Notes under the pieces: model-generated
The model's database searches: none
What the model was told of the DNA's origin: nothing
Seen by the model: the letters and a program-made list of their open reading frames with translations, nothing else
Source: Microlunatus kandeliicorticis
GTDB lineage: Bacteria > Actinomycetota > Actinomycetes > Propionibacteriales > Propionibacteriaceae
Direction: 5' to 3'
Assembly: GCF_014137855.1 (NCBI RefSeq)
Contig: NZ_JACGWT010000004.1
Span: 310,001-374,000, forward strand
DNA length: 64,000 bases
In this document: piece after piece, positions 28,317 to 40,781 of the stretch
Layout of the letters: each line of letters begins with the position of its first letter
Numbering within the stretch: position 1 is the stretch's first letter
Translations under genes and position numbers: made by a program

Positions 28317-29075
28317 TCAGGCGTCGACCAGGGCGCCTTCGGGGGCCTCGAAGTTGGCGTAGACGTTCTGGACATCGTCGGAGTCCTCGAGGGCCTCGAT
28401 GATCCGCTCGACCTTCTCCATGGTGGGGGCGTCGACGGGCTGGGTGAACTCGGGGACGAACTCGACCTCGGCGGACTCGTAGTCCAGACCGGCCTCCTGG
28501 ACGGCGGTGCGCACCTTGACCACGTCGGCCGGGTCGCAGAGCACCTCGAACGCCTCACCGAGGTCGCTGACGTCCTCGGGCCCGGCCTCGAGGGTCGCCT
28601 CGAGCACGTCGTCCTCGGTGAGGGTCCGGTCGCCCTGGGTCTTGCCGACCACCACGACGCCCTTGCGGTTGAACACCCGGGCCACCGAGCCGACGTCGGC
28701 CATCGTGCCGCCGTTGCGGGTGACGGCGACCCGGACGTCGGAGGCCGAGCGGTTGCGGTTGTCGGTGAGGCACTCGATCAGCAGCGCGACACCGGCCGGG
28801 CCGTAGGCCTCGTACATCAGCGTCTCGTAGTCGGCTCCGCCGGACTCGGCACCCGAGCCGCGCTTGACCGCGCGGTCGATGTTGTCCTTGGGGACCGAGG
28901 TCTTCCGGGCCTTCTGGATCGCGTCGTAGAGCGTCGGGTTGCCGTCCGGATCGCCGCCGCCGAGCCGGGCGGCGACCTCGATGTTCTTGATCAGCTTCGC
29001 GAACGACTTCGCACGACGTGCGTCGACCACGGCCTTCTGGTGCTTGGTGGTGGCCCACTTGGAGTGTCCGGACAT
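28317..29075 (-). CDS. yebC: YebC/PmpR family DNA-binding protein
   Basis: The 252-residue protein has the family's invariant start [14 protein letters not shown], the [16 protein letters not shown] segment and the [21 protein letters not shown] motif. YebC proteins bind DNA or act on translation at proline stretches, depending on the member. It normally sits directly next to ruvC; here about 1.8 kb of extra DNA separates them. Confidence 0.96.
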
Positions 29076-29099: not shown

Positions 29100-29987
29100 T
29101 CAGCGGACCCAGATCCGGCGGCGCGAGCGCTGCCCGCCCTTGCCCGGCGGCTGGGTCTGCTGCCAGATCCGCCGCCAGCTCCCGACCGGCGGGTCCACCG
29201 ACTCCCCCGCCGGCCGCGGGTGCCGCTGGGCCTCCCACCAGGTGGTGGCGTCCTCGTCGATCAGCCGGGTCACCGCGGCGGCCAGCTGGTCGCCGACCGA
29301 CCGGACGTCCTCGCCCGGGCCGGGCCGCAGCGCGGGGCCGAACCCGACGCTGATCCGCGACCGGGCCGGGTGGTCGCGCCCCGACCGGACCGGCCACGGC
29401 CGGCCCTTGGGCAGCACCGCGTACGTCCCGCGCACCCCCGCCGGGACCAGCGGCAGCCGGTGCCGGATGGCCAGTTCGGCGGCCAGGTCGGCGAACCGGC
29501 CGAGGAAGCCGTCGACCGAGCGCCCGCCCTCGGGATAGACCAGCAGGCTCCAGCCCTCGGCGAGCAGGGCGTCGGCGCTCACCCCGCCGGGGCGGTGTCC
29601 GCCGCCGAGCAGCGCCGCGTTGAACAGCAGCGCGGACGCCTGGCGCCGCCAGCCGCTGTCGAAGAGCGCGCCGCCCATCGCGGCCACCACGGTCCGGCGG
29701 CGCAGCGCGCCCGGCAGCGCGCTGAGCAGCACCGGGGTGTCGAGGTGGCTGGCGTGGTTGGCCGCGATGATCACCGGGCCGACGGTGCCGGCCGGGCCGG
29801 TCGCGGTCTCGGCGAGGTCGTCCGCGCCGCGCGCCTCCACCGCCACCAGCGAGCGGAGCACCGGGCCGAGGGTCAGCGCCTGGAGCGGGCGGCGGACCAG
29901 CCCGGCCAGCGGCGACCGGGCCCAGTCGTTCCCGTTCCCCGCGGTCGTTCCCGCACCGCCGGTGCGGGACCAGAGCTCAGCGGACAT
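29100..29987 (-). CDS. PlsC-like 1-acylglycerol-3-phosphate acyltransferase family protein
   Basis: The 295-residue protein has the acyltransferase motif I N-H-A-S-H-L-D (His-X4-Asp), a later P-E-G-G-R-S matching motif III, and V-P-A-G-V-R-G-T matching motif IV. These enzymes acylate lysophosphatidate or other acceptors from acyl-CoA or acyl-ACP at the membrane. Its start lies 11 bp inside the LarA-like gene, so it is translationally coupled to that gene and to the reductase upstream. The real acceptor is unknown. Confidence 0.85.
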   Translation of the reverse strand: MSAELWSRTGGAGTTAGNGNDWARSPLAGLVRRPLQALTLGPVLRSLVAVEARGADDLAETATGPAGTVGPVIIAANHASHLDTPVLLSALPGALRRRTVVAAMGGALFDSGWRRQASALLFNAALLGGGHRPGGVSADALLAEGWSLLVYPEGGRSVDGFLGRFADLAAELAIRHRLPLVPAGVRGTYAVLPKGRPWPVRSGRDHPARSRISVGFGPALRPGPGEDVRSVGDQLAAAVTRLIDEDATTWWEAQRHPRPAGESVDPPVGSWRRIWQQTQPPGKGGQRSRRRIWVR

Positions 29988-31485
29988 CGGCCGAGACCGG
30001 GGCGGCGTTGCGGAGATAGCGGATCCGCGGGCTGTGCCCGACGCCCGCGGCGACGATCTCCAGCGCGTCGGCCAGCGTCGAGGCGGCCCGCAGCCCGAGC
30101 CGGGACGCGGCCGCCCGGTCGGCGCCGACGGCCACCACGTCGCCGCAGTGGGCCAGCACCGGCGCCAGCTCGTACCAGCGGTGGAACGGGTGGACGCCGT
30201 GGAAGGCGTGCGCGGTCCGGTAGAGGTTGCGCCACCAGGGGTCCTCGGCGAACTTCGACTCGAAGTCCTCGGCCAGCCGCGCCGGGTCGGCGGTCACCGG
30301 GAGGACCGAGGAGAAGAAGTCGACGTAGGACGGGTGGTGCAGGGCGCTGAACTGGGTGCTCAGCGGGTGGTAGAGCACCACCGCGCCGCCCTCGCGGACC
30401 AGCGGTGTGCCGGTGGTCGCCCCGACGCCGGGCACCAGCGCGTTCCACAACGCCAGCACCGGGTTGGTCAGCGAGTCGATGCTGTAAGGCGTGGGGTCGG
30501 GCGCACCGACCACCAGGACGTCGGCCTGCCCGTCGACCTGGACCCGCAGGTGCTCGGCCACGTGCGCGGCGCTGGCGGCGGCGACGGCGGTCGGGTCACC
30601 GGCGGTGACCAGGCTGACGGTCGCCGACGCCTCGCGGCCGCCGGCCAGCCGGTCGGCCCAGCGGCTCGGTGCGGCTGACAGCCCGCGCGAGACCGCCTGG
30701 TAGGCGCCCTGCGCGGCCAGCCCCCACTCCCACTCGCGGCGGCCGAGGAACTCGAGCCGGCCGCCGTACCGCTGCACCGAGACCACCGCGTCGAGCGCGA
30801 AGACCGGCACCGCGGCGCCGATCAGCTCGACCGCGCGGGGGGCGGTGGCGGTGGCCGGCGAGCCGAGCCCGCGAGCGATCAGCTCGAGCCCGCCCGCGCC
30901 CGGCCGGGTCACCAGGTGGACCAGCACGACGAGGTCGGACTCGGCCACCCGGCGGTGGATCGCGACCTCGGGCGCACCGTCGCCGCCCGGGTCGAGCACG
31001 GTCAGCCCGTCACGGTCCTCGGCGTCGTGCTGGAGCAGCCGGCCGTCGCCGTGGAAGCTGCGGAAGACCCGCTCGCCCAGCACCCGCCGGAGCTCGGTGT
31101 CGGTGCTGCGCCGTTCGAGCCCGCGGGCCCCGACCAGCACGACGTCGTCGACGCCGGCCGCGGCGGCCAGCGTCAGCACCCGCTCGACGACCCGGCCGCG
31201 GACGTCCGGGCTGCGGAGCCGGACGCCGGGGCTGCTGAGGTCGTCGAAGACCAGGGTGAGCCGCATCCCGGGGCGGAGCCGGTCGGCCAGCGGGTCGGAG
31301 CCCACCGGGTGCGCGCAGGCGGCGTCGATCGCCTCGGTCAGGTCGTCCACCGGGGTCGCCGGGTCGGGCGGGTAGACGACCTCGGTGCCGAGTGGGAACT
31401 GCTCGGTCCGCAGCCGCGGACCGTCGTGCACCAGCAGCGGCGGGGTGCGCTCGTCGACCTCGAGCACGAAACCGGGGCGGGCCAT
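29977..31485 (-). CDS. LarA-like (DUF2088) protein lacking recognisable catalytic residues
   Basis: The 502-residue protein looks like the lactate racemase LarA/DUF2088 family. The D-D-x-T-R-P-type motif appears as D-D-L-S-S-P (81-86), followed by G-A-R-G-L-E-R-R-S-T-D-T-E-L-R-R-V-L-G where LarA has G-x-H-R-x-x-x-x-x-E-L. By eye, the first catalytic His is Glu124, and the segment that carries the second His and the cofactor-binding Lys in LarA (E-P-H-x-x-x-G-F-S-G-G-x-K) reads V-T-R-P-G-A-G-G-L-E-L here. It is therefore unlikely to use the nickel-pincer cofactor, and no larB/C/E is in the window. It lies one base after the reductase gene. Confidence 0.65.
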   Translation of the reverse strand: MARPGFVLEVDERTPPLLVHDGPRLRTEQFPLGTEVVYPPDPATPVDDLTEAIDAACAHPVGSDPLADRLRPGMRLTLVFDDLSSPGVRLRSPDVRGRVVERVLTLAAAAGVDDVVLVGARGLERRSTDTELRRVLGERVFRSFHGDGRLLQHDAEDRDGLTVLDPGGDGAPEVAIHRRVAESDLVVLVHLVTRPGAGGLELIARGLGSPATATAPRAVELIGAAVPVFALDAVVSVQRYGGRLEFLGRREWEWGLAAQGAYQAVSRGLSAAPSRWADRLAGGREASATVSLVTAGDPTAVAAASAAHVAEHLRVQVDGQADVLVVGAPDPTPYSIDSLTNPVLALWNALVPGVGATTGTPLVREGGAVVLYHPLSTQFSALHHPSYVDFFSSVLPVTADPARLAEDFESKFAEDPWWRNLYRTAHAFHGVHPFHRWYELAPVLAHCGDVVAVGADRAAASRLGLRAASTLADALEIVAAGVGHSPRIRYLRNAAPVSADVR

Positions 31486-31486
31486 C

Positions 31487-33961
31487 TCAGGAGTCTCCTC
31501 GTACGGGGCGCGGGGCCGGGGACGGGTCCCCGGACGGGGCGCCGGTCAGCTCGGGCGGGTCGGTGCGTTCCTCGGCGGTCAGCCGGGACAGCGTCCAGCG
31601 CGAGTTCTGCGGACGGATCTTCCACTCGACCGTGGTCCAGGACTGGCCGGCCGCGGCCCGCATCAGCGGGACGTCCGGGCTGACCGCGACCGGACGTCCG
31701 ACGCAGGACAGCATCGGCAGGTCGGAGTGGCTGTCGGCGTAGGCGAAGCTGCGCGACAGGTCCATGTCGTGCAGCGACGCGTAGTGGTTGAGCCAGGCGG
31801 CCCGGGACTCGCCGACCAGCGGCGGGCCGGTGAGGAAGCCGGTGCACCGGCCACGGGCGTCGACGGCGAGGTCGGCGGCCACGATGACGTCGAACAGCGG
31901 CGCCAGCGGCCGGGTCAGCGGCCGGATGCAGCCGGTGATCAGGATGGTGGTGTGCCCGGCCTCGCGGTGCTCGCGGACCCGGCGGACCGCGTCCGGGCTG
32001 AGCCGGCCGAGGATCTCGCCGGCCATCGTGGTGTCGACGAACTCCTCGAGCGCGGCCAGGTCGGCCCCGGCGTAACGCCGGTAGACCGCGCGCAGGAACG
32101 CCCCGCGGTCGCGCCGCTCGACCCGCAGATAGCTGGGCAGCGAGCGGAGCACCGAACCGAGCTCGGCCAGCTGGTGGGCCCGGTCCAGCTCGGGCAGCCG
32201 CGACCACAGGTACTGCTCGATCACGTTGGTCGACATGATCGTGCCGTCGAGGTCGAAGGCGGCCAGCACCCGGTGCGCCTCCGGGTCGGCCTTGGCCCGG
32301 CGCATCCCCTCGTCGCTGCTCAGGTCGGCCCAGGTGCTGGCCCGCGACCCGCGCTTGCGGCGGAGCGCGTCGAGCCGACGGACCGGGGCGGTGATCGACG
32401 GGCAGTGGATCCGCTCGACGTACTCGGTCCAGTCGACCACCGCGGTGTCGCAGGCGAAGACCGGCTGGTCGGCCGGGTCGAGCGAACGGCTCAACCGCAG
32501 GGTGTTGTCGTCGACGAAGTGCAGCTCGGACTGCGCGTACTCGTTGTAGAGGCTGAGGTAGCGGCGCAGGAAGTCCAGCCGCGACCGGGTCCGGTCGAGG
32601 TCGCGGGCGAACTTGCGGGTGCGCTCGGAGCGCGGGAGCTTGAGCACCGCCCGGTCGGCCAGCGCGTGCGCCCGCTCGGAGGTGGACAGCAGCCGCTCGA
32701 CCGAGGCCGCGCCGGGGAACTTCCACTGCGGCAGCCGCGCCGCGCCCCGGGCGCCGCCCTCGAACGGGTGGGCCAGGAAGTAGTTGCGGATGTGGATGTA
32801 GAAGCCGGAGAAGGTGATCGGGTTCCGGGCGCCGGAGCTGACGTGGTAGTACTCGCAGACCCCGATCTCCGGCTCGGTCGCGCAGACCGCGATGGTCGCG
32901 TTGACCACGTGGTCGCACGGGACGACGTCGATCACCGAGTCCGGGGAGGCCGGGAACTCGGGCAACTCGCCGCGGCCATAGGCCAGGATCAGCGGCTCGG
33001 CCATCTTGAAGCCCTCGATCCAGCCCGGGTAGGGGTGGACGAGCGAGGACTCGACGATCGAGGGCCGGACCACCGAGGTGCGGATGTGCGCGCCCTTGTC
33101 GGCGACCACCCGCTCACCCAGCGCCTTGGTGAACGTGTAGACGTCGGTCCAGCCGAGCGAGCGGGCCCGTTCGGTGCCGGCCTCGACCAGCTTGGCCTGC
33201 ACCCACTCCTTGCGGCGGCGCTCGGTGTCGGCGGCGGTGGTGAGGTAGCCGGCGGCGCGGTGGTCGCGCTCGGCCTCCTTACGCAGCCGGGTCAGCTGCG
33301 CCGACGTCCGCGACTCGGCCTCGATCAGGTCGCGCATGGCCAGCCCGGCCGCGGTCTCGGCCCGGTAGTCGATGTCGTGGGCGTGCGGGGCCTCGCCGAT
33401 CGCCCCGCGCCGCCGGCCGGCGGTGTAGGCGGTGGAGATCTGGACGTAGTGCGGGATCCGGACCAGCTCGCCGTCCTCGCCGGTGCAGGCCTCGAGCATC
33501 CGGTCCATCAGCGCCTCGGTGCCGATGACGTTGGTGCGGAAGGCCTGGTCGATCGGCGGGTCGAAGGATACGTCGCCGGCGCAGTGCACCACCACGTCGA
33601 GGTCGCGCGGCAGCGCGGGAACGTTGGGCAGGTCACCCTCGATGACCCGGATCCGCTGCTCCAGCAGGGCTTCCGGGCCACCGGCCGCCTCCCGGACCCC
33701 GGCGAAGATCTTCTTCCGGACGACCGCGAGCGTGCGGTCGCGGGCACTGGCCGAGCCCTTGCGGCGGACCAGCACGGCCACCGTGGTGTCGGGCAGCTCG
33801 ACCAGCATCTTCCACAGCAGCTGCTCGCCGATGAACCCGGTGACCCCGGTCATCACGATCACCTTGCCGGCCAGCAGGTCGCGGAGCCGCCCGTCGACCG
33901 TGGGGCCGGGGTGGTCGGCCGCGGTGGCGCGCTGGAAGGTCTCGGCGGGCGCGACCGTCAC
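31487..33961 (-). CDS. fatty acyl-CoA reductase fused to a HAD-IB phosphatase
   Basis: The 824-residue protein has two modules. The N-terminal half is a Male-sterility/NAD_binding_4 reductase: T-G-V-T-G-F-I-G at residues 38-45, Y-T-F-T-K as the catalytic Tyr/Lys, and R-P-S-I-V-E-S-S following, the pattern of fatty acyl-CoA reductases that make fatty aldehyde or alcohol. The C-terminal half is a HAD-IB hydrolase with F-D-L-D-G-T near residue 570, I-T-G as motif II, and [10 protein letters not shown] as motif IV, like phosphoserine or lysophosphatidate phosphatases. GTG 33961 overlaps the priA stop (GTGA). The substrates are inferred only. Confidence 0.85.
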
Positions 33962-34752
33962 CGCACCGCTCCGGCCGGGCGCTCGCCGCGCGCGGTGGCC
34001 AGCGCGTCGGTCAGGGTGAAGTTGCCGACGTAGAGCGCGGTGCCGATGATCGCGCCCTCGACGCCGGGCTCGCCGGGCCGGTCGGGCACCAGGGCGGCGA
34101 GCCGCTCGATGTCGTCGAGGGTGGAGATGCCGCCGCTGGCCACCAGCGGCCGGGAGGTGCGCTCGGCGATCTGGGCCAGCAGCCGGTAGTTCGGCCCAGC
34201 CAGCATGCCGTCGGAGGCGACGTCGGTGACCACGAACCGCGCGCAGCCCTCGGCGTCGAGCCGGTCCAGCGTCTCGAACAGGTCCCCGCCCTCGGTGGTC
34301 CAGCCGCGCGCGGCCAGCCGGTGGTGCTCGCCGTCGGGATCGGACTTCACGTCCAGGCCGACGGCGATCCGCTCGCCGTGCTCGGCGATGATCTCGGCCA
34401 CCCACTCGGGACGTTCGAGCGCGGCGGTGCCGATGTTGACCCGGGCGCACCCGGTGGAGAGGGCGCGGTCGAGGCTGGCGGCGTCGCGGATCCCGCCGGA
34501 GAGCTCGACCTTGAGCCCGACCACGCTGGCCACCTCGGCGATGACCTCGCCGATCACCGCGGCGTTGCTGCCGCGGCCGAACGCCGCGTCGAGGTCCACC
34601 AGGTGGATCCACTCGGCGCCGGCCTCGGCCCACCGGCGGGCCGCCTGACGCGGGTCGCCGAACCGCTTCTCGCTCCCGGCCCGGCCCTGCACCAGCTGCA
34701 CCGCCTGGCCGCCCGCCACGTCGACGGCGGGCAGCAGCACCAACGAACTCAC
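33958..34752 (-). CDS. priA: phosphoribosyl isomerase A (HisA-type, probably bifunctional with TrpF)
   Basis: The 264-residue (beta/alpha)8 protein isomerises ProFAR in histidine synthesis and, in actinobacteria, usually also phosphoribosylanthranilate in tryptophan synthesis. Seen: [13 protein letters not shown], the Asp at strand 1, [14 protein letters not shown] and [14 protein letters not shown] with the second catalytic Asp, and A-S-G-G-I-S-T. Bifunctionality is inferred from the lineage. It is about 6 kb from hisH, whereas the two are normally adjacent. Confidence 0.93.
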
Positions 34753-36017: not shown

Positions 36018-36938
36018 TCAGGCCCCGACCAGCACCTGCTCGTCGACGTCGCCGCGCACCCGGCGCAGCTTCTTCATCGCCGCCAGCTCACCCTCGTAGA
36101 TCTTCTTGACGCCGTCGCCGAGCGAGGCCTCCACCGCGCGGATGTCGCGGACGAGCCGCTGCAGACCGCCCGGCTCGACCGACGCCGCCTGGTCCGAGCC
36201 CCACATGGCCCGGTCGAGGGTGATGTGCCGCTCGACGAAGGTGGCGCCGAGGGCGACCGCGGCCAGCGTGGTCTGCAGGCCGGTCTCGTGCCCGGAGTAG
36301 CCGATCGGGACGTTCGGGAACTCCGCGGCCAGCGTGTTGATCATGCGGAGGTTGAGCTCCTCGGCCTTGGCCGGGTAGGTGCTGGTGGCATGGCAGAGCA
36401 CGATGTTGTCGCTGCCGAGCACCTCGACCGCGTGCCGGATCTGCCGCGGGGTGGACATCCCGGTGGACAGCACCACGGTGCGGCCGGTGGCGCGGAGCCG
36501 GCGGAGCAGCTCGTCGTCGGTCAGCGAGGCCGAGGCGACCTTGTGCGCGGCCACGTCGAACTGCTCGAGGAAGTCGACCGACTCGACGTCCCACGGGGAG
36601 GCGAACCAGGCGATCCCCTGCTGCGCGCAGTAGGCGTCGATGGCGCGGTACTCGTCGAACCCGAACTCGACCCGGTGCCGGTAGTCGATGTAGGTCATCC
36701 GGCCCCACGGGGTGTCGCGCTCGATGTCCCACTGGTCGCGCGGGGTGCAGATCTCGGGGGTGCGCTTCTGGAACTTGACCGCGTCGCAGCCGGCGGCGGC
36801 CGCGGCGTCGATCAGCCCGAAGGCGTTCTCCAGCTCGCCGTTGTGATTGATCCCGATCTCGCCGGTGACGAATACCGGGTGGCCGGGGCCGACAGTCTTG
36901 GTGCCGATGGTGCGGGTGCGGGCGTCGTGGTTGCTCAC
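36018..36938 (-). CDS. NeuB-type N-acetylneuraminate synthase family protein
   Basis: NeuB enzymes condense phosphoenolpyruvate with a hexosamine to give sialic acid or a related nonulosonic acid. The 306-residue product has the family marks V-T-G-E-I-G-I-N-H-N-G, A-V-K-F-Q-K-R, A-S-P-W-D (for F-S-T-P-W-D), H-K-V-A-S, L-S-T-G-M-S, L-C-H-A-T-S-T-Y-P, G-Y-S-G-H-E and F-V-E-R-H-I-T-L-D. It lacks the C-terminal antifreeze-like SAF domain found in many NeuB proteins, so it is the short form. The GTG start at 36938 follows a ggaagg site. No NeuA or NeuC homologue is in the window. Confidence 0.88.
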   Translation of the reverse strand: MSNHDARTRTIGTKTVGPGHPVFVTGEIGINHNGELENAFGLIDAAAAAGCDAVKFQKRTPEICTPRDQWDIERDTPWGRMTYIDYRHRVEFGFDEYRAIDAYCAQQGIAWFASPWDVESVDFLEQFDVAAHKVASASLTDDELLRRLRATGRTVVLSTGMSTPRQIRHAVEVLGSDNIVLCHATSTYPAKAEELNLRMINTLAAEFPNVPIGYSGHETGLQTTLAAVALGATFVERHITLDRAMWGSDQAASVEPGGLQRLVRDIRAVEASLGDGVKKIYEGELAAMKKLRRVRGDVDEQVLVGA

Positions 36939-37196
36939 CTGGGGTGGCCTTCCGGTCGTGTCCCGGCCGATCCGGGACGGCGGTCGCGTCTGCGTCGAAC
37001 CCGAAGCTAGGAAGGCGAACCGGACGGACACCCATCCGCAGACGAACGACACGTGAACAGCCGACGGACGCTGGGTGGCCGGGTCCCGGACGGCACGGTG
37101 GGTGTTCACGTCGGCGTCACCGACTCGTTGCCGGGCCCGCCTAGCGTCGGTCACGACCGGGCCCGGCAGGGTCGTCCGCTACCCCGACAGGACCAG

Positions 37197-38285
37197 ATGT
37201 CCGCACCCGATCCCCGTGCACCCGAGATCTCGATCATCGTCCCGGCCAAGGACCTCGACCACTACCTGGCCGACTGCCTGACCAGCCTGGTCCGGCAGCT
37301 CGACGACCTCTCCGGACCCGACGCCCTGCAGGTGGTCGTGGTGGACGACGGGTCGACCGACCGGACCGCCGACGTCGCCGCCTCGTTCCGGAACCGGCTG
37401 CCCGGTCTGGAGATCCTCCGCAACGCGACCCCGGTGGGGCTGGCCTCGGCCCGCAACCAGGGACTGCGGGCCGCCCGGGGCCACTACCTCGGGTTCCTCG
37501 ACGGCGACGACTGGCTGTCCCCGGGACAGCTGTCCACCCTGCTGCGGTGGATCCGCCGGCTGGACGTCGACTTCGTCCGGACCGATCACGTCCGCAGCAC
37601 CGCGGGTCGCCGGCAGCAGGTCCGCGCGCCCCAGGCCGTCCGGCACGTCCGGCTCGACCCGCGCGCCTCGATCCTGCCCGAGACCGCCACGACCATGATC
37701 GACTACTGCTACGCCTGGGCGGGGCTGTTCGACCGCCGGGTGCTGCCGCTGCTGTCCTTCCCCGAAGGCCTGTTCACCGCCGAGGACCGGCCGTGGTGCT
37801 GGGGTCTGCACCTGCGCGCCGCGTCCTACGCGGTGGTCGACAGCCCCGGCATCCTCTACCGGCGCGGCAGCGCGACCTCGCTGACCCAGATCGTCGACCG
37901 GCGTCAGCTCGACTTCCTGCCCGCCTTCGCGCAGGTCTTCGGTCTGGTCCGCGATGATCACGAGGCCGACCGGTTCTGGCCCAAGGCGGCCCGGATGTTC
38001 CTCGGCGTGCTGGCCCACCACCTGTCGCGCCAGCACCTGATGCGGCTGGCCGACGCCACCGCGCTGCACCGCCGGGCCCGGCCGCTGGTCCAGCAGGTGC
38101 CGGAGGCGGCCCTGGCGCACGCGTTCGCCGGGCTGTCGGAGGAGCGTCGCCGGCTGCTCCGGCCGGTGGTCGGCCGAGCCGTCGGTGACGAGGTCGACGC
38201 CGGCTTCTGGTCCGGGCACAGCCGGGTGGCGGCAGTCCGCGGCCGGGTCGTCGGCAGCCTCGCGCACCAGGCGGTGATCGAGTGA
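37197..38285 (+). CDS. GT2 family glycosyltransferase
   Basis: The 362-residue protein is a GT-A inverting glycosyltransferase. It shows I-S-I-I-V-P-A-K-D near residue 10, V-V-V-D-D-G-S-T-D-R-T near residue 42, A-S-A-R-N-Q-G-L and F-L-D-G-D-D-W as the metal-binding D-x-D, with no membrane span. The C-terminal 200 residues are helical. It heads a rightward pair with the polysialyltransferase-like gene (GTGA overlap), divergent from the NeuB-type gene. Confidence 0.88.
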   Translation: MSAPDPRAPEISIIVPAKDLDHYLADCLTSLVRQLDDLSGPDALQVVVVDDGSTDRTADVAASFRNRLPGLEILRNATPVGLASARNQGLRAARGHYLGFLDGDDWLSPGQLSTLLRWIRRLDVDFVRTDHVRSTAGRRQQVRAPQAVRHVRLDPRASILPETATTMIDYCYAWAGLFDRRVLPLLSFPEGLFTAEDRPWCWGLHLRAASYAVVDSPGILYRRGSATSLTQIVDRRQLDFLPAFAQVFGLVRDDHEADRFWPKAARMFLGVLAHHLSRQHLMRLADATALHRRARPLVQQVPEAALAHAFAGLSEERRRLLRPVVGRAVGDEVDAGFWSGHSRVAAVRGRVVGSLAHQAVIE

Positions 38286-39796
38286 GCCAGCTGGTGGTCG
38301 CCTCGACCTTCTACCAGTGCCTCAGCCTGGCCGCCGCGGTCGACGTCGGCGCGCTGCCCGACCCCGACGGCGAACGGATCCTGCTGCTCGCCGACTCCAG
38401 CCAGGCTCCCGAGCTGTCGGTGCCGCTGGACCGGCAGACCGGGTTCGCCGAGGTGGCCAAGCGGTTCGACCGGGTGATCGACCTGGCACCGCTGGTCGCC
38501 CCGCGGCGGCCAGTGCAGTTCGCGCCGCGCGCCGACGAGCTGGAGATGTGGTCGCAGCTGCTGGTCCGCTTCTGGGAGCTCGACGCCGCGCCCGGCTCGG
38601 TGATCATGGACTCGGTGCAGGTGAACCCGGCGCCGGCGCTGGCCCGGATCTTCCGGCACGCCGAGCTGTGGACGCACTCGGACGGGCTGATGACCTACTC
38701 CCCCACCCGCAAACCGTTGCCCACCGAGCTGGGCCAGCGGATCCGTGGGCTCTGCTACGTCGACCTGGTGCCCGGGCTGCGTCCCCAGCTGCTCGCCGAG
38801 CACCGACCCGAGCACCGGACGGTGCCGGCCGCCGCGGTCCGTGAGGTGCTCCGCGGCGTGGTCGGCACCGCCCCTGATCACGACCATGATCACGACGCTG
38901 ATCACGACCGTGATCACGACCGGGGGGCCGGCCACCGCCCGCACGCCCTGGTGCTCGGCCAGTACCTGCCCAGCCTCGGGCTGATCAGCACCGAGGAGGA
39001 GACCGAGCTGCACCGGGCGATGATCGCCGAGGTGGCCGGTCGCGGGATCGACCGCTGCGTGTTCAAGAAGCACCCGAGCGCGCCGCCGGCCGCCGGCTGG
39101 GCGCTGCGCGAGATCGCGGCCGAGCTCGGCGTCACGCTGGTGGTCGACGACGGCCCCGGGGTGGCCGAGCTGGCCATGATCGACGACCCGCCCGCGCTGG
39201 TGGTGAGCTGCTTCTCCACCGGGCTGGCCACCGCCCGGTTCCTGCTCGGGCTGGACGCGGTCGCGGTGGGCACGCCGCTGGTGCTCGGCCGGCTCACCCC
39301 GTACGCGAACAGCAACCGGATCCCCCTGGTGATCGCCGACGCACTGTTCGCCGGCAGGGGCGGTGGGGCGGTGGCGCCCGGCGCCGAGCTCGACGGGCTG
39401 GTGGCGGCGGTGGCCTACTGCATGCAGCCGACGGTGGTGCCGCAGCTGCGGCCCGTGGCGGTGGCGCAGCTGGCCCGACTGGCCGCCGAGGACCGGCGGA
39501 CGCTGACCCGCTACTTCACCCGGCGCCGGCTGACCCGGCTCGACCTCCCCGGTCAGCCGCCACAGCCGTCCGCCCACCGGCGGGCCCTCAGCCGGCTCAA
39601 GCGGCGGACCCTGCGGCTGCCGGTGGTCGGGACGGTGGTCGGCACGGCGCTCACCGGGCCGGACGGGGCCAGGCGCAGCAACGGCCGCGTTCCGGTCCCG
39701 GCGCGTCCGCGGACCGGAGGCACCGTGCACCGGGTCGCACACCAGGCGACCGCGGCGGTGCTCGGCCGGATCAGCCGAGCGGCGCGACGACGCTGA
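38282..39796 (+). CDS. polysialyltransferase family protein with a His/Asp repeat
   Basis: The 504-residue protein matches the polysialyltransferase-like family: N-terminal L-V-V-A-S-T-F-Y-Q-C-L-S-L, central H-S-D-G-L-M-T-Y-S-P, F-K-K-H-P-S-A-P-P and L-V-V-S-C-F-S-T-G-L-A-T. The K-H-P and S-x-x-S/T type motifs are typical of GT52/GT38 enzymes. Around residues 199-215 a run of alternating His and Asp is encoded by a short DNA repeat (38876-38926). A basic C-terminus follows. Its 3' end overlaps the converging HAD gene by 26 bp. Confidence 0.78.
   Translation: MSQLVVASTFYQCLSLAAAVDVGALPDPDGERILLLADSSQAPELSVPLDRQTGFAEVAKRFDRVIDLAPLVAPRRPVQFAPRADELEMWSQLLVRFWELDAAPGSVIMDSVQVNPAPALARIFRHAELWTHSDGLMTYSPTRKPLPTELGQRIRGLCYVDLVPGLRPQLLAEHRPEHRTVPAAAVREVLRGVVGTAPDHDHDHDADHDRDHDRGAGHRPHALVLGQYLPSLGLISTEEETELHRAMIAEVAGRGIDRCVFKKHPSAPPAAGWALREIAAELGVTLVVDDGPGVAELAMIDDPPALVVSCFSTGLATARFLLGLDAVAVGTPLVLGRLTPYANSNRIPLVIADALFAGRGGGAVAPGAELDGLVAAVAYCMQPTVVPQLRPVAVAQLARLAAEDRRTLTRYFTRRRLTRLDLPGQPPQPSAHRRALSRLKRRTLRLPVVGTVVGTALTGPDGARRSNGRVPVPARPRTGGTVHRVAHQATAAVLGRISRAARRR
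38876..38926 (+). repeat. short repeat encoding alternating His/Asp
   Basis: Variants of tgatcacgac occur four times in tandem inside the polysialyltransferase-like gene. They keep frame and encode a potentially metal-binding His/Asp run. Confidence 0.8.
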
Positions 39797-40781
39797 CCCC
39801 GGCCGGGTCGAGCGGCGCGAAGAGGTGCGGGAAGCCCCGGGCGGCGGTCGGGTCGGCGTCCGGCCCGGTGGTCAGACTCGCCGGGGCCGGCTCGACCAGG
39901 ATCGGTGCGGTGCCGGCCGGCAGCGTGACCCGGAGCAGGTCGTCCGGGTCGATGTCGGCGAAGCTGCGGGCCCGGACCCCCTCGACCTGGTCGGCGAACG
40001 CGGTGTGGACGAAGCCGGCCTGCTCGTAGTCCAGGCCGCGGGTCGACCACGGGTAGCGACCGATCACCCGCGCCTCCTCCCAGACGGCCCGCTCGACCAG
40101 GTGGTGGACGTCGACGTCGAGCGCGGGCGGAGCACCGACGAGCCCGAGCGCGGCGAGCTCGCAGCGGAGCGCGGCGGCGTCGGTGAAGGTGACCGTGCGC
40201 AGCCCGAGCCGGCGGGCGGCCGCGCAGTTCGCGGCCGAGTCGTCGACGAACACCGTGGTCACCGGGTCGAGCCCGTAGCGGTCGAGCAGCAACCGGAAGA
40301 TCGCCGGGTCGGGCTTGGCCAGCTTCTCGGTGCCCGAGACGACGATCCCGGCGAACCGGTCGAGGACGTCGAAGCGCGGCCGGGTCGCGGCGAACGTGTC
40401 GGCGGCCCAGTTGGTCAGCGCGACCAGGGTCGTACCGCGGCGCTGGAGCTCGGCGACGACCGCGGCGGTGCCGGGCACCATGCCCGGGATCGCGTGGTCG
40501 AAGTGCTGCCGGTAGGCCAGGACCGCTTCCTCGCGGTGCGGGAACCGCTCGAGCAGTTCCTGCTCGCCGTCGGCCCACGGACGCCCGGCGTCGTGCAGGC
40601 GGTTCCAGGCCGGGAAGTCGATCTCGGCCAGGAAGCCGTCGATCTCGTCCTCGGGCAGCACCCGGGCGTAGGCGAGCCGCGGGTCCCAGCGCAGCACCAC
40701 GCCACCGAGGTCGAAGATCACCGCCTCGACCGGGGCGTCGGGCTCACCGCCGGGGACCGGGTCGCTGGCCGGCGCGGTCAC
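39771..40781 (-). CDS. HAD-IA hydrolase fused to a DUF952 domain
   Basis: The 336-residue protein begins with a HAD phosphatase: V-I-F-D-L-G-G-V-V-L (motif I), A-L-T-N-W (motif II), G-T-E-K-L-A-K-P-D-P (motif III) and F-V-D-D-S-A-A-N (motif IV). From about residue 215 it continues as a DUF952 domain (V-H-H-L-V-E-R-A-V-W-E-E-A, G-F-V-H-T-A-F-A-D-Q-V). GTG 40781 overlaps the hisH stop (GTGA), which ties it to the his operon. Histidine synthesis needs a HisN phosphatase, but the HAD-IA type is not the usual actinobacterial HisN, so that role is only a possibility. Confidence 0.85.
   Translation of the reverse strand: MTAPASDPVPGGEPDAPVEAVIFDLGGVVLRWDPRLAYARVLPEDEIDGFLAEIDFPAWNRLHDAGRPWADGEQELLERFPHREEAVLAYRQHFDHAIPGMVPGTAAVVAELQRRGTTLVALTNWAADTFAATRPRFDVLDRFAGIVVSGTEKLAKPDPAIFRLLLDRYGLDPVTTVFVDDSAANCAAARRLGLRTVTFTDAAALRCELAALGLVGAPPALDVDVHHLVERAVWEEARVIGRYPWSTRGLDYEQAGFVHTAFADQVEGVRARSFADIDPDDLLRVTLPAGTAPILVEPAPASLTTGPDADPTAARGFPHLFAPLDPAGVSVVAPLG

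Follow-up and report, generated by a model that had tools for sequence, protein, structure and literature searches.

The window analyzed here, a 64,000-nucleotide stretch of Microlunatus kandeliicorticis DNA (contig NZ_JACGWT010000004.1, positions 310,001 to 374,000), contains a row of three genes following priA and encoding a fusion of a fatty acyl-CoA reductase (FAR) with a HAD-IB phosphatase domain (FAR-HAD), a LarA-like protein, and a PlsC-family acyltransferase (Table 1). The genome (G000) comprises 4.3 Mb on 9 contigs. In agreement with the coordinates given in a preliminary description, the FAR-HAD gene overlaps priA by 4 bp (GTGA) and is separated by a 1-bp gap from the LarA-like gene, which overlaps the PlsC gene by 11 bp. 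That description proposed a distinct lipid pathway, with an alkyl ether as one guess at its product.

Table 1. Features of the gene row, its surroundings, and the second operon of the same genome (window positions unless another sequence is named)
Feature	Position	Strand	Remarks
yebC	28317-29075	-	24 bp after the PlsC gene
PlsC-family acyltransferase gene	29100-29987	-	295 aa; PF01553, 39.2 bits (cut-off 23)
LarA-like protein gene	29977-31485	-	502 aa; diverged LarAH14/15/16 member
FAR-HAD fusion gene	31487-33961	-	824 aa; GTG start 33961, stop 31487
FAR domain	~residues 30-545 of FAR-HAD		PF07993 + PF03015
HAD-IB phosphatase domain	~residues 566-780 of FAR-HAD		TIGR01490
priA (hisA/trpF isomerase)	33958-34752	-	TIGR01919, 345.6 bits, above cut-off; upstream neighbour, not judged a system member
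NeuB-family gene	36018-37154	-	flanked by priA and a hisH-like gene (the latter by eye)
Family-2 glycosyltransferase gene	37053-38285	+	between the hisH-like gene and priA
Polysialyltransferase-family gene	38282-39796	+	between the hisH-like gene and priA
HAD hydrolase + DUF952 domain	39771-40697		one frame; adjoins the hisH-like gene
SDR-PlsC-AGPS operon	G000:C2 ~449842-453349		contig other than the window's
PlsC-like acyltransferase gene beside own AGPS	L223 9567-10421
SDR gene beside own AGPS	L223 10535-11350

FAR-HAD belongs to the FAR family by its PF07993 (NAD_binding_4; 152.5 bits) plus PF03015 (Sterile; 36.1 bits, cut-off 35.4) architecture and its Rossmann and YxxxK motifs, the closest solved sequence relative being the fatty acyl-CoA reductase 7eoz (3.5e-48). 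The HAD-IB half, scoring 106.2 bits against TIGR01490 (cut-off 98.3), carries an FDLDGT motif. Judged by family, the FAR domain would make a fatty alcohol from acyl-CoA, and the HAD domain may have a role in the pathway. Across 80 named loci found via FAR-HAD, the motifs of the fusion are almost invariant—the exceptions being L078, with a changed HAD nucleophile motif, and L075, in which the start is missing—and FAR-HAD is the constant part of the cassette. A DxEGT form of the HAD motif also occurs in L204 and L247.

Adjacency to priA is lineage-specific: priA lies 5' of FAR-HAD in Propionibacteriaceae and Kribbella, and no priA match was found in flanks of up to 10 kb around Nocardioides FAR-HAD loci. 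The functional coupling to priA put forward in the preliminary description was therefore rejected. It is also extremely improbable that the HAD domain supplies a histidinol-phosphate phosphatase otherwise missing from the his operon, with the other genes as passengers; although the domain matches models of that enzyme (74.4 bits, cut-off 280) and adjoins priA, the genome contains a HisN-like gene (272.2 bits, cut-off 275.15), on which ground this candidate was rejected, the best HisN match reaches at least 247 bits in 39 of 40 relatives (this genome included), and some FAR-HAD loci have no priA close by.

The LarA-like protein is a diverged member of its group both by sequence and by fold, scoring 478 bits against NF052592 (LarAH14/15/16; cut-off 740), compared with 914.5 for the Kribbella copy, and 70.6 bits against PF09861 (Lar_N), with just profile positions 18-163 of 204 covered. 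Its model (predicted local distance difference test, pLDDT, 91.2) finds as top fold matches 9q3k (E 1.9e-28, TM 0.76/0.79) and 9q3j, both LarA-like nickel-pincer nucleotide (NPN) enzymes, and its closest solved sequence relatives are 9q2u and 9q3j, likewise LarA-like nickel-pincer enzymes. In contrast to the fold, the cofactor site has been lost: Glu occupies the positions of the NPN lysine (K184 equivalent) and the catalytic histidine (H108 equivalent), the nickel histidine (H200 equivalent) falls in a gap, and a stretch of ~25 residues that should follow the cofactor segment is missing. Since the NPN residues are gone, a working LarA enzyme is not supported here, and the candidate reading of an active NPN enzyme was rejected; on sequence grounds the protein is a pseudoenzyme, perhaps a relic or scaffold, perhaps a subunit.

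Loss of the lysine and the catalytic histidine extends to all readable relatives in the family. The cofactor lysine is absent in 16/16 Propionibacteriaceae genomes with a readable site, the window genome among them, and present in 12/12 order relatives outside the family; a histidine is present in the nickel column in 1/16 versus 12/12 and at the catalytic position in 0/17 versus 12/12. Among the named loci, compared on a quick tree with L050, L075, and 16 Kribbella rows left out, the motif is absent in 40/40 readable LarAs on the Propionibacteriaceae side and kept in 33/33 outside. Intact LarA is accompanied by full-score LarC and LarE in each of the 12 order relatives that carry it, whereas four family genomes with degenerate LarA (G003, G004, G008, and G020) are without LarC and without full-score LarE. 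In the window genome, three more Lar_N proteins lie elsewhere (C2:365034, C6:47478, and C3:648470) and may explain the retention of LarC and LarE.

The window PlsC keeps both NHASHLD (HX4D) and YPEGGRS (PEG); it remains under the cut-off of TIGR00530 (32 versus 102.95 bits), and its closest solved sequence relative is the 1-acyl-sn-glycerol-3-phosphate acyltransferase 5kym (2.8e-7). Both motifs are kept in all 33 cassette PlsC copies outside the family, versus 5/34 within it, where HX4D is missing in 25/34. Cassette PlsC thus appears as a second pseudoenzyme in much of Propionibacteriaceae (L039-L083, L102, and L112), with dN/dS of ~0.05 to 0.63 among such copies (here and below, pairwise Nei-Gojobori estimates on high-GC DNA).

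With neighbours judged by tblastn matches and open reading frame calls at the fetched loci being crude, 75 of the 80 named loci yielded LarA and 67 yielded PlsC, some misses reflecting contig ends. A zinc-type alcohol dehydrogenase (ADH) lies between FAR-HAD and LarA in 35 of the 80, 34 of these also having LarA and PlsC. In other classes of the phylum, 18 of 20 fetched LarA regions contain a full-score LarA, of which 17 have PlsC, 17 at least a partial ADH, and 17 FAR and/or HAD (some misses again being contig ends); the two low-score regions are without PlsC, ADH, FAR, or HAD. In 6/20 of these regions, the cassette has a TetR gene close by (one checked by Pfam), too few to build on. In a survey of 296 phylum genomes, 77 have FAR-HAD at E<=1e-60 (window excluded), including 70 of the 71 carrying a full-score LarA. 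In 59 of these 70, the two genes lie on the same strand within 3 kb, with FAR-HAD upstream; in 6 they are farther apart on one contig, and in 5 they are on separate contigs (Fisher p 1.5e-58 for co-occurrence, shared ancestry ignored).

The three genes are therefore conserved as a unit, also in other classes, and the lack of conserved neighbourhood that would have counted against the original proposal did not occur; a lipid pathway is judged likely. The proposed gene set, correct for these three, had missed a fourth: the ancestral cassette is FAR-HAD > zinc ADH > NPN-LarA > PlsC and is older than the family of the window organism. The zinc ADH is absent from the window cassette, and a displaced ADH was rejected, none having been found in the genome at E<=1e-15 in a search run without a positive control, hence a weak negative. 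The window row is probably a pruned descendant of this ancient actinobacterial lipid cassette.

A second gene set accompanies FAR-HAD elsewhere. Of 394 genomes of the class, those of the window organism's order among them, 76 have FAR-HAD at E<=1e-100, and 13 of 20 loci fetched have ADH, LarA, and PlsC. Both LarA and ADH are missing from the remaining 7, which instead carry genes for a short-chain dehydrogenase/reductase (SDR), PlsC, and the ether-bond-forming alkyl-DHAP synthase (AGPS) within ~3.5 kb of FAR-HAD, on the same strand in 3 loci and divergently in 4. AGPS exchanges the acyl group of acyl-dihydroxyacetone phosphate (acyl-DHAP) for a fatty alcohol, which FAR supplies (available passages of PMC9131029; papers are cited here by PMC number from partial texts). 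That the same kind of FAR-HAD adjoins a predicted alkyl-DHAP synthase, PlsC, and SDR in seven genomes lends indirect support to the early guess of an alkyl ether. In Propionibacteriaceae, where the NPN site and in most cases also the ADH have disappeared, AGPS is found in 22/24 genomes at 748-867 bits, with a best score of 316 bits among order relatives outside the family. The window genome itself has an SDR-PlsC-AGPS operon, the AGPS of which scores 867.2 bits, is 68% identical to that of L201, and matches the alkyldihydroxyacetonephosphate synthase 2uuu (401 bits, 9.2e-119), with the LSHHH motif common to both. The operon adjoins ackA-like and pta-like genes (by eye). In G022, the sole family genome without FAR-HAD, AGPS is missing too.

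In the genomes sampled, intact LarA and close AGPS exclude each other. Taking matches of 604-906 bits as close AGPS (others reach at most 361 bits), 41 of the 78 genomes on a quick FAR tree retain an intact LarA and are without a close AGPS; AGPS is present in 36 (23 with a LarA lacking the lysine, 13 with no cassette LarA), one genome is without either, and the two never occur together. With 14 further genomes, all with intact LarA and without close AGPS, the totals for 92 FAR-HAD genomes are 55, 36, 1, and 0, respectively; G428, G603, G476, and G563, whose LarA is not readable, and G673 and G007 were left out. The switches map to Propionibacteriaceae, to genus g241 of family f88, and to families f89/f11/f108/f111.

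Genus g241 is the most detailed case, first seen as two f88 genomes with a LarA minus the lysine motif. Close AGPS was found in all nine g241 genomes searched (790-814 bits), compared with none in 20 genomes of other f88 genera (at most 341 bits). The lysine is lost in 8/8 readable g241 LarAs, whereas the lysine and both histidines are kept in 16/16 readable LarAs of the other genera. Furthermore, the ADH of g241 has lost Cys and His-Glu positions, which we take to be zinc ligands, in 7/7 readable copies, so that the ADH-LarA pair seems to act as a single module. The PlsC motifs are intact in the g241 copies read. Decay of the ADH-LarA pair is therefore what AGPS accompanied in this lineage. 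This joint loss, together with the position of AGPS within ~3.5 kb of FAR-HAD in 7/7 LarA-less loci, speaks against the idea that the cassette serves wax ester or fatty-alcohol storage, the FAR alcohol being esterified by PlsC, with AGPS and LarA incidental and their exclusion due to shared ancestry. FAR domains do serve wax-ester synthesis too (PMC11948995, in the passages available), and the independent switches number just three, but no wax synthase occurs among the few annotated neighbours, a sample short of a full search; we regard this explanation as quite unlikely.

From the computed gene content, residue loss, mutual exclusion, and fold, we infer a product, a chemistry for LarA and ADH, and a place for the HAD domain. 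With moderate confidence, and on comparative sequence grounds, FAR-HAD would feed alkyl-ether-lipid synthesis, with ADH and NPN-LarA forming an alternative to the AGPS module and the LarA site having been lost in the window. In relatives, the fatty alcohol from FAR may be built into an O-alkyl (ether) glycerolipid, for which PlsC would provide the acylated intermediate, a derivative of glycerol-phosphate or DHAP; either the AGPS(+SDR) or the ADH + NPN-LarA module would carry out the alkyl-ether and keto/alcohol steps, as the gene substitution implies. By analogy, the SDR may be an alkyl-DHAP reductase and the neighbouring PlsC a DHAP acyltransferase. In the window genome, the ether step would fall to the AGPS of the second operon, and the LarA-like protein, still folded and under selection, may serve as a subunit or scaffold. 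Because loss of the LarA site accompanies the AGPS gene set across the sampled relatives, the operon probably served the same ether-lipid pathway by a different route; the data point to a single pathway that either of two gene sets can serve rather than to a distinct lipid.

Several observations weigh against this reading. The exclusion comprises 3 independent switches when well-supported branches are counted (4 when every branch is), too few for a sign test to reach 0.05. Degeneration of the g241 LarAs is partial, the nickel histidine being kept in 7/8 and the catalytic histidine in 4/8, and no SDR or PlsC match was found near AGPS in the four g241 loci read. One family genome, G021 (82% complete), is without either module, LarC is still present in 12/16 family genomes with a readable degenerate LarA—perhaps for other LarA paralogues—and the AGPS of this clade is assigned as alkyl-DHAP synthase by homology. 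In 11/17 readable LarA-type loci of other classes (L146-L162), the second Asp of the HAD nucleophile motif is Glu, so that DxDGT reads DxENT or DxEGT and the HAD half of these proteins may be something other than a normal phosphatase. Lastly, the degenerate LarA is under purifying selection (dN/dS 0.09-0.46 between close pairs) and is thus not simply dead. It could have gained a new, non-NPN catalytic function instead of being a scaffold or relic, a possibility that is compatible with the ether-lipid proposal and to which the intact fold and the retention of LarA after lysine loss in two lineages also point; the absence of a cassette LarA from a number of Propionibacteriaceae (L048 and L066 among them) and of the ~25 residues from the window copy makes it unlikely.

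The AGPS-type gene set resembles the mammalian ether-lipid pathway of FAR1, GNPAT, AGPS, and alkyl-DHAP reductase as described in the available text of PMC9131029: AGPS-type relatives likewise cluster FAR, a PlsC-family protein, AGPS, and SDR, and the window genome has all four counterparts, at two sites. Unlike in mammals, FAR is fused here to HAD-IB, and LarA-type genomes have NPN-LarA and zinc ADH instead of AGPS and SDR. The same passages describe in Myxococcus xanthus the elb operon, likened here by description, with FAR-like and AGPAT-like domains in ElbD and a separate HAD protein, ElbB, as well as the AGPS-containing MXAN_1676 operon, an ether-lipid locus the disruption of which had a minor effect. 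ElbD, unlike the cassette, has ACS and ACP domains, and no LarA appears at the M. xanthus loci in that text (PMC9131029). An association of HAD-IB and PlsC functions is also seen in the mycobacterial HAD-PlsC fusion mentioned in the preliminary description, whereas in the window HAD-IB forms one protein with FAR, and PlsC has a gene of its own.

For the LarA groups, the available passages report that group 16 is without NPN and catalytic residues (PMC7583248)—so the existence of such groups is already in print—and that groups 14 and 15 are without the His174 equivalent, the second catalytic histidine (PMC12611868). The name LarAH15 is used for a Phytophthora D-gluconate epimerase (PMC11770544), which may belong to a different group from group 15 here. 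The single-histidine enzymes 9q3j and 9q3k, the closest solved folds to both the window and the Kribbella LarA, differ from the former in keeping the NPN lysine and one catalytic histidine, and are placed in carbohydrate metabolism in the text available (PMC12611868). That assignment, and the use of 2-hydroxyacids by NPN enzymes with reported activity (PMC7583248, in part), would fit a different scheme in which LarA isomerizes and ADH oxidizes a 2-hydroxyacyl group, e.g., for 2-hydroxy or 1,2-diol lipids with FAR, and the flavin adenine dinucleotide (FAD) enzyme is a 2-hydroxyacid dehydrogenase replacing them; D-lactate and D-2-hydroxyglutarate dehydrogenases of the FAD superfamily also match, at 48.8-73.2 bits. 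However, the FAD enzyme is much nearer to AGPS (2uuu, 367-401 bits; mammalian AGPS, 278-304 bits), has the SHHH motif, and, in the window genome as in the seven LarA-less loci, has PlsC and SDR as neighbours, and Frankia LarAH14 was negative for all seven activities tabled in the accessible part of PMC7583248. The 2-hydroxyacid scheme is therefore rather unlikely. As to the ether-lipid proposal, the passages on LarA groups contain neither the cassette, the AGPS exclusion, nor the parallel switches, and a limited search of partial texts with broad terms found no link between LarA and ether lipids in print.

Around the cassette, the NeuB-family, glycosyltransferase, and polysialyltransferase-family genes form a sialic-acid-like surface polysaccharide locus inside the his region. 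A GNAT acetyltransferase gene, absent from the window, lies between the cassette and yebC in L049, L062, and L066 (assigned by Pfam for L062 and by eye for the others). A defence role (PADLOC, 0 families) and a viral origin (33 IMG/VR pattern matches, none a relative) were rejected.

A more specific version of the ether-lipid proposal, tentative and on balance doubtful, is that the intact LarAH14/15-type proteins of Kribbella, Nocardioides, and other Actinomycetota are NPN enzymes that cooperate with the zinc ADH to create the ether bond of alkyl-glycerol, or to carry out an equivalent ether-lipid step, as a non-flavin alternative to AGPS. Transient hydride removal at glycerol C2, for example, might activate C1 for an acyl-alkoxy exchange. 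If so, NPN chemistry would extend beyond 2-hydroxyacid racemization. The proposal could also explain the loss of cofactor residues in some LarA groups. The uncharacterized LarAH14/15 group gains a testable place in lipid synthesis, and ether lipids are predicted in many soil actinobacteria. Overall, the findings suggest that a single step of ether-lipid synthesis in bacteria can be served by a flavin-based or a nickel-based gene set, the two being interchangeable.

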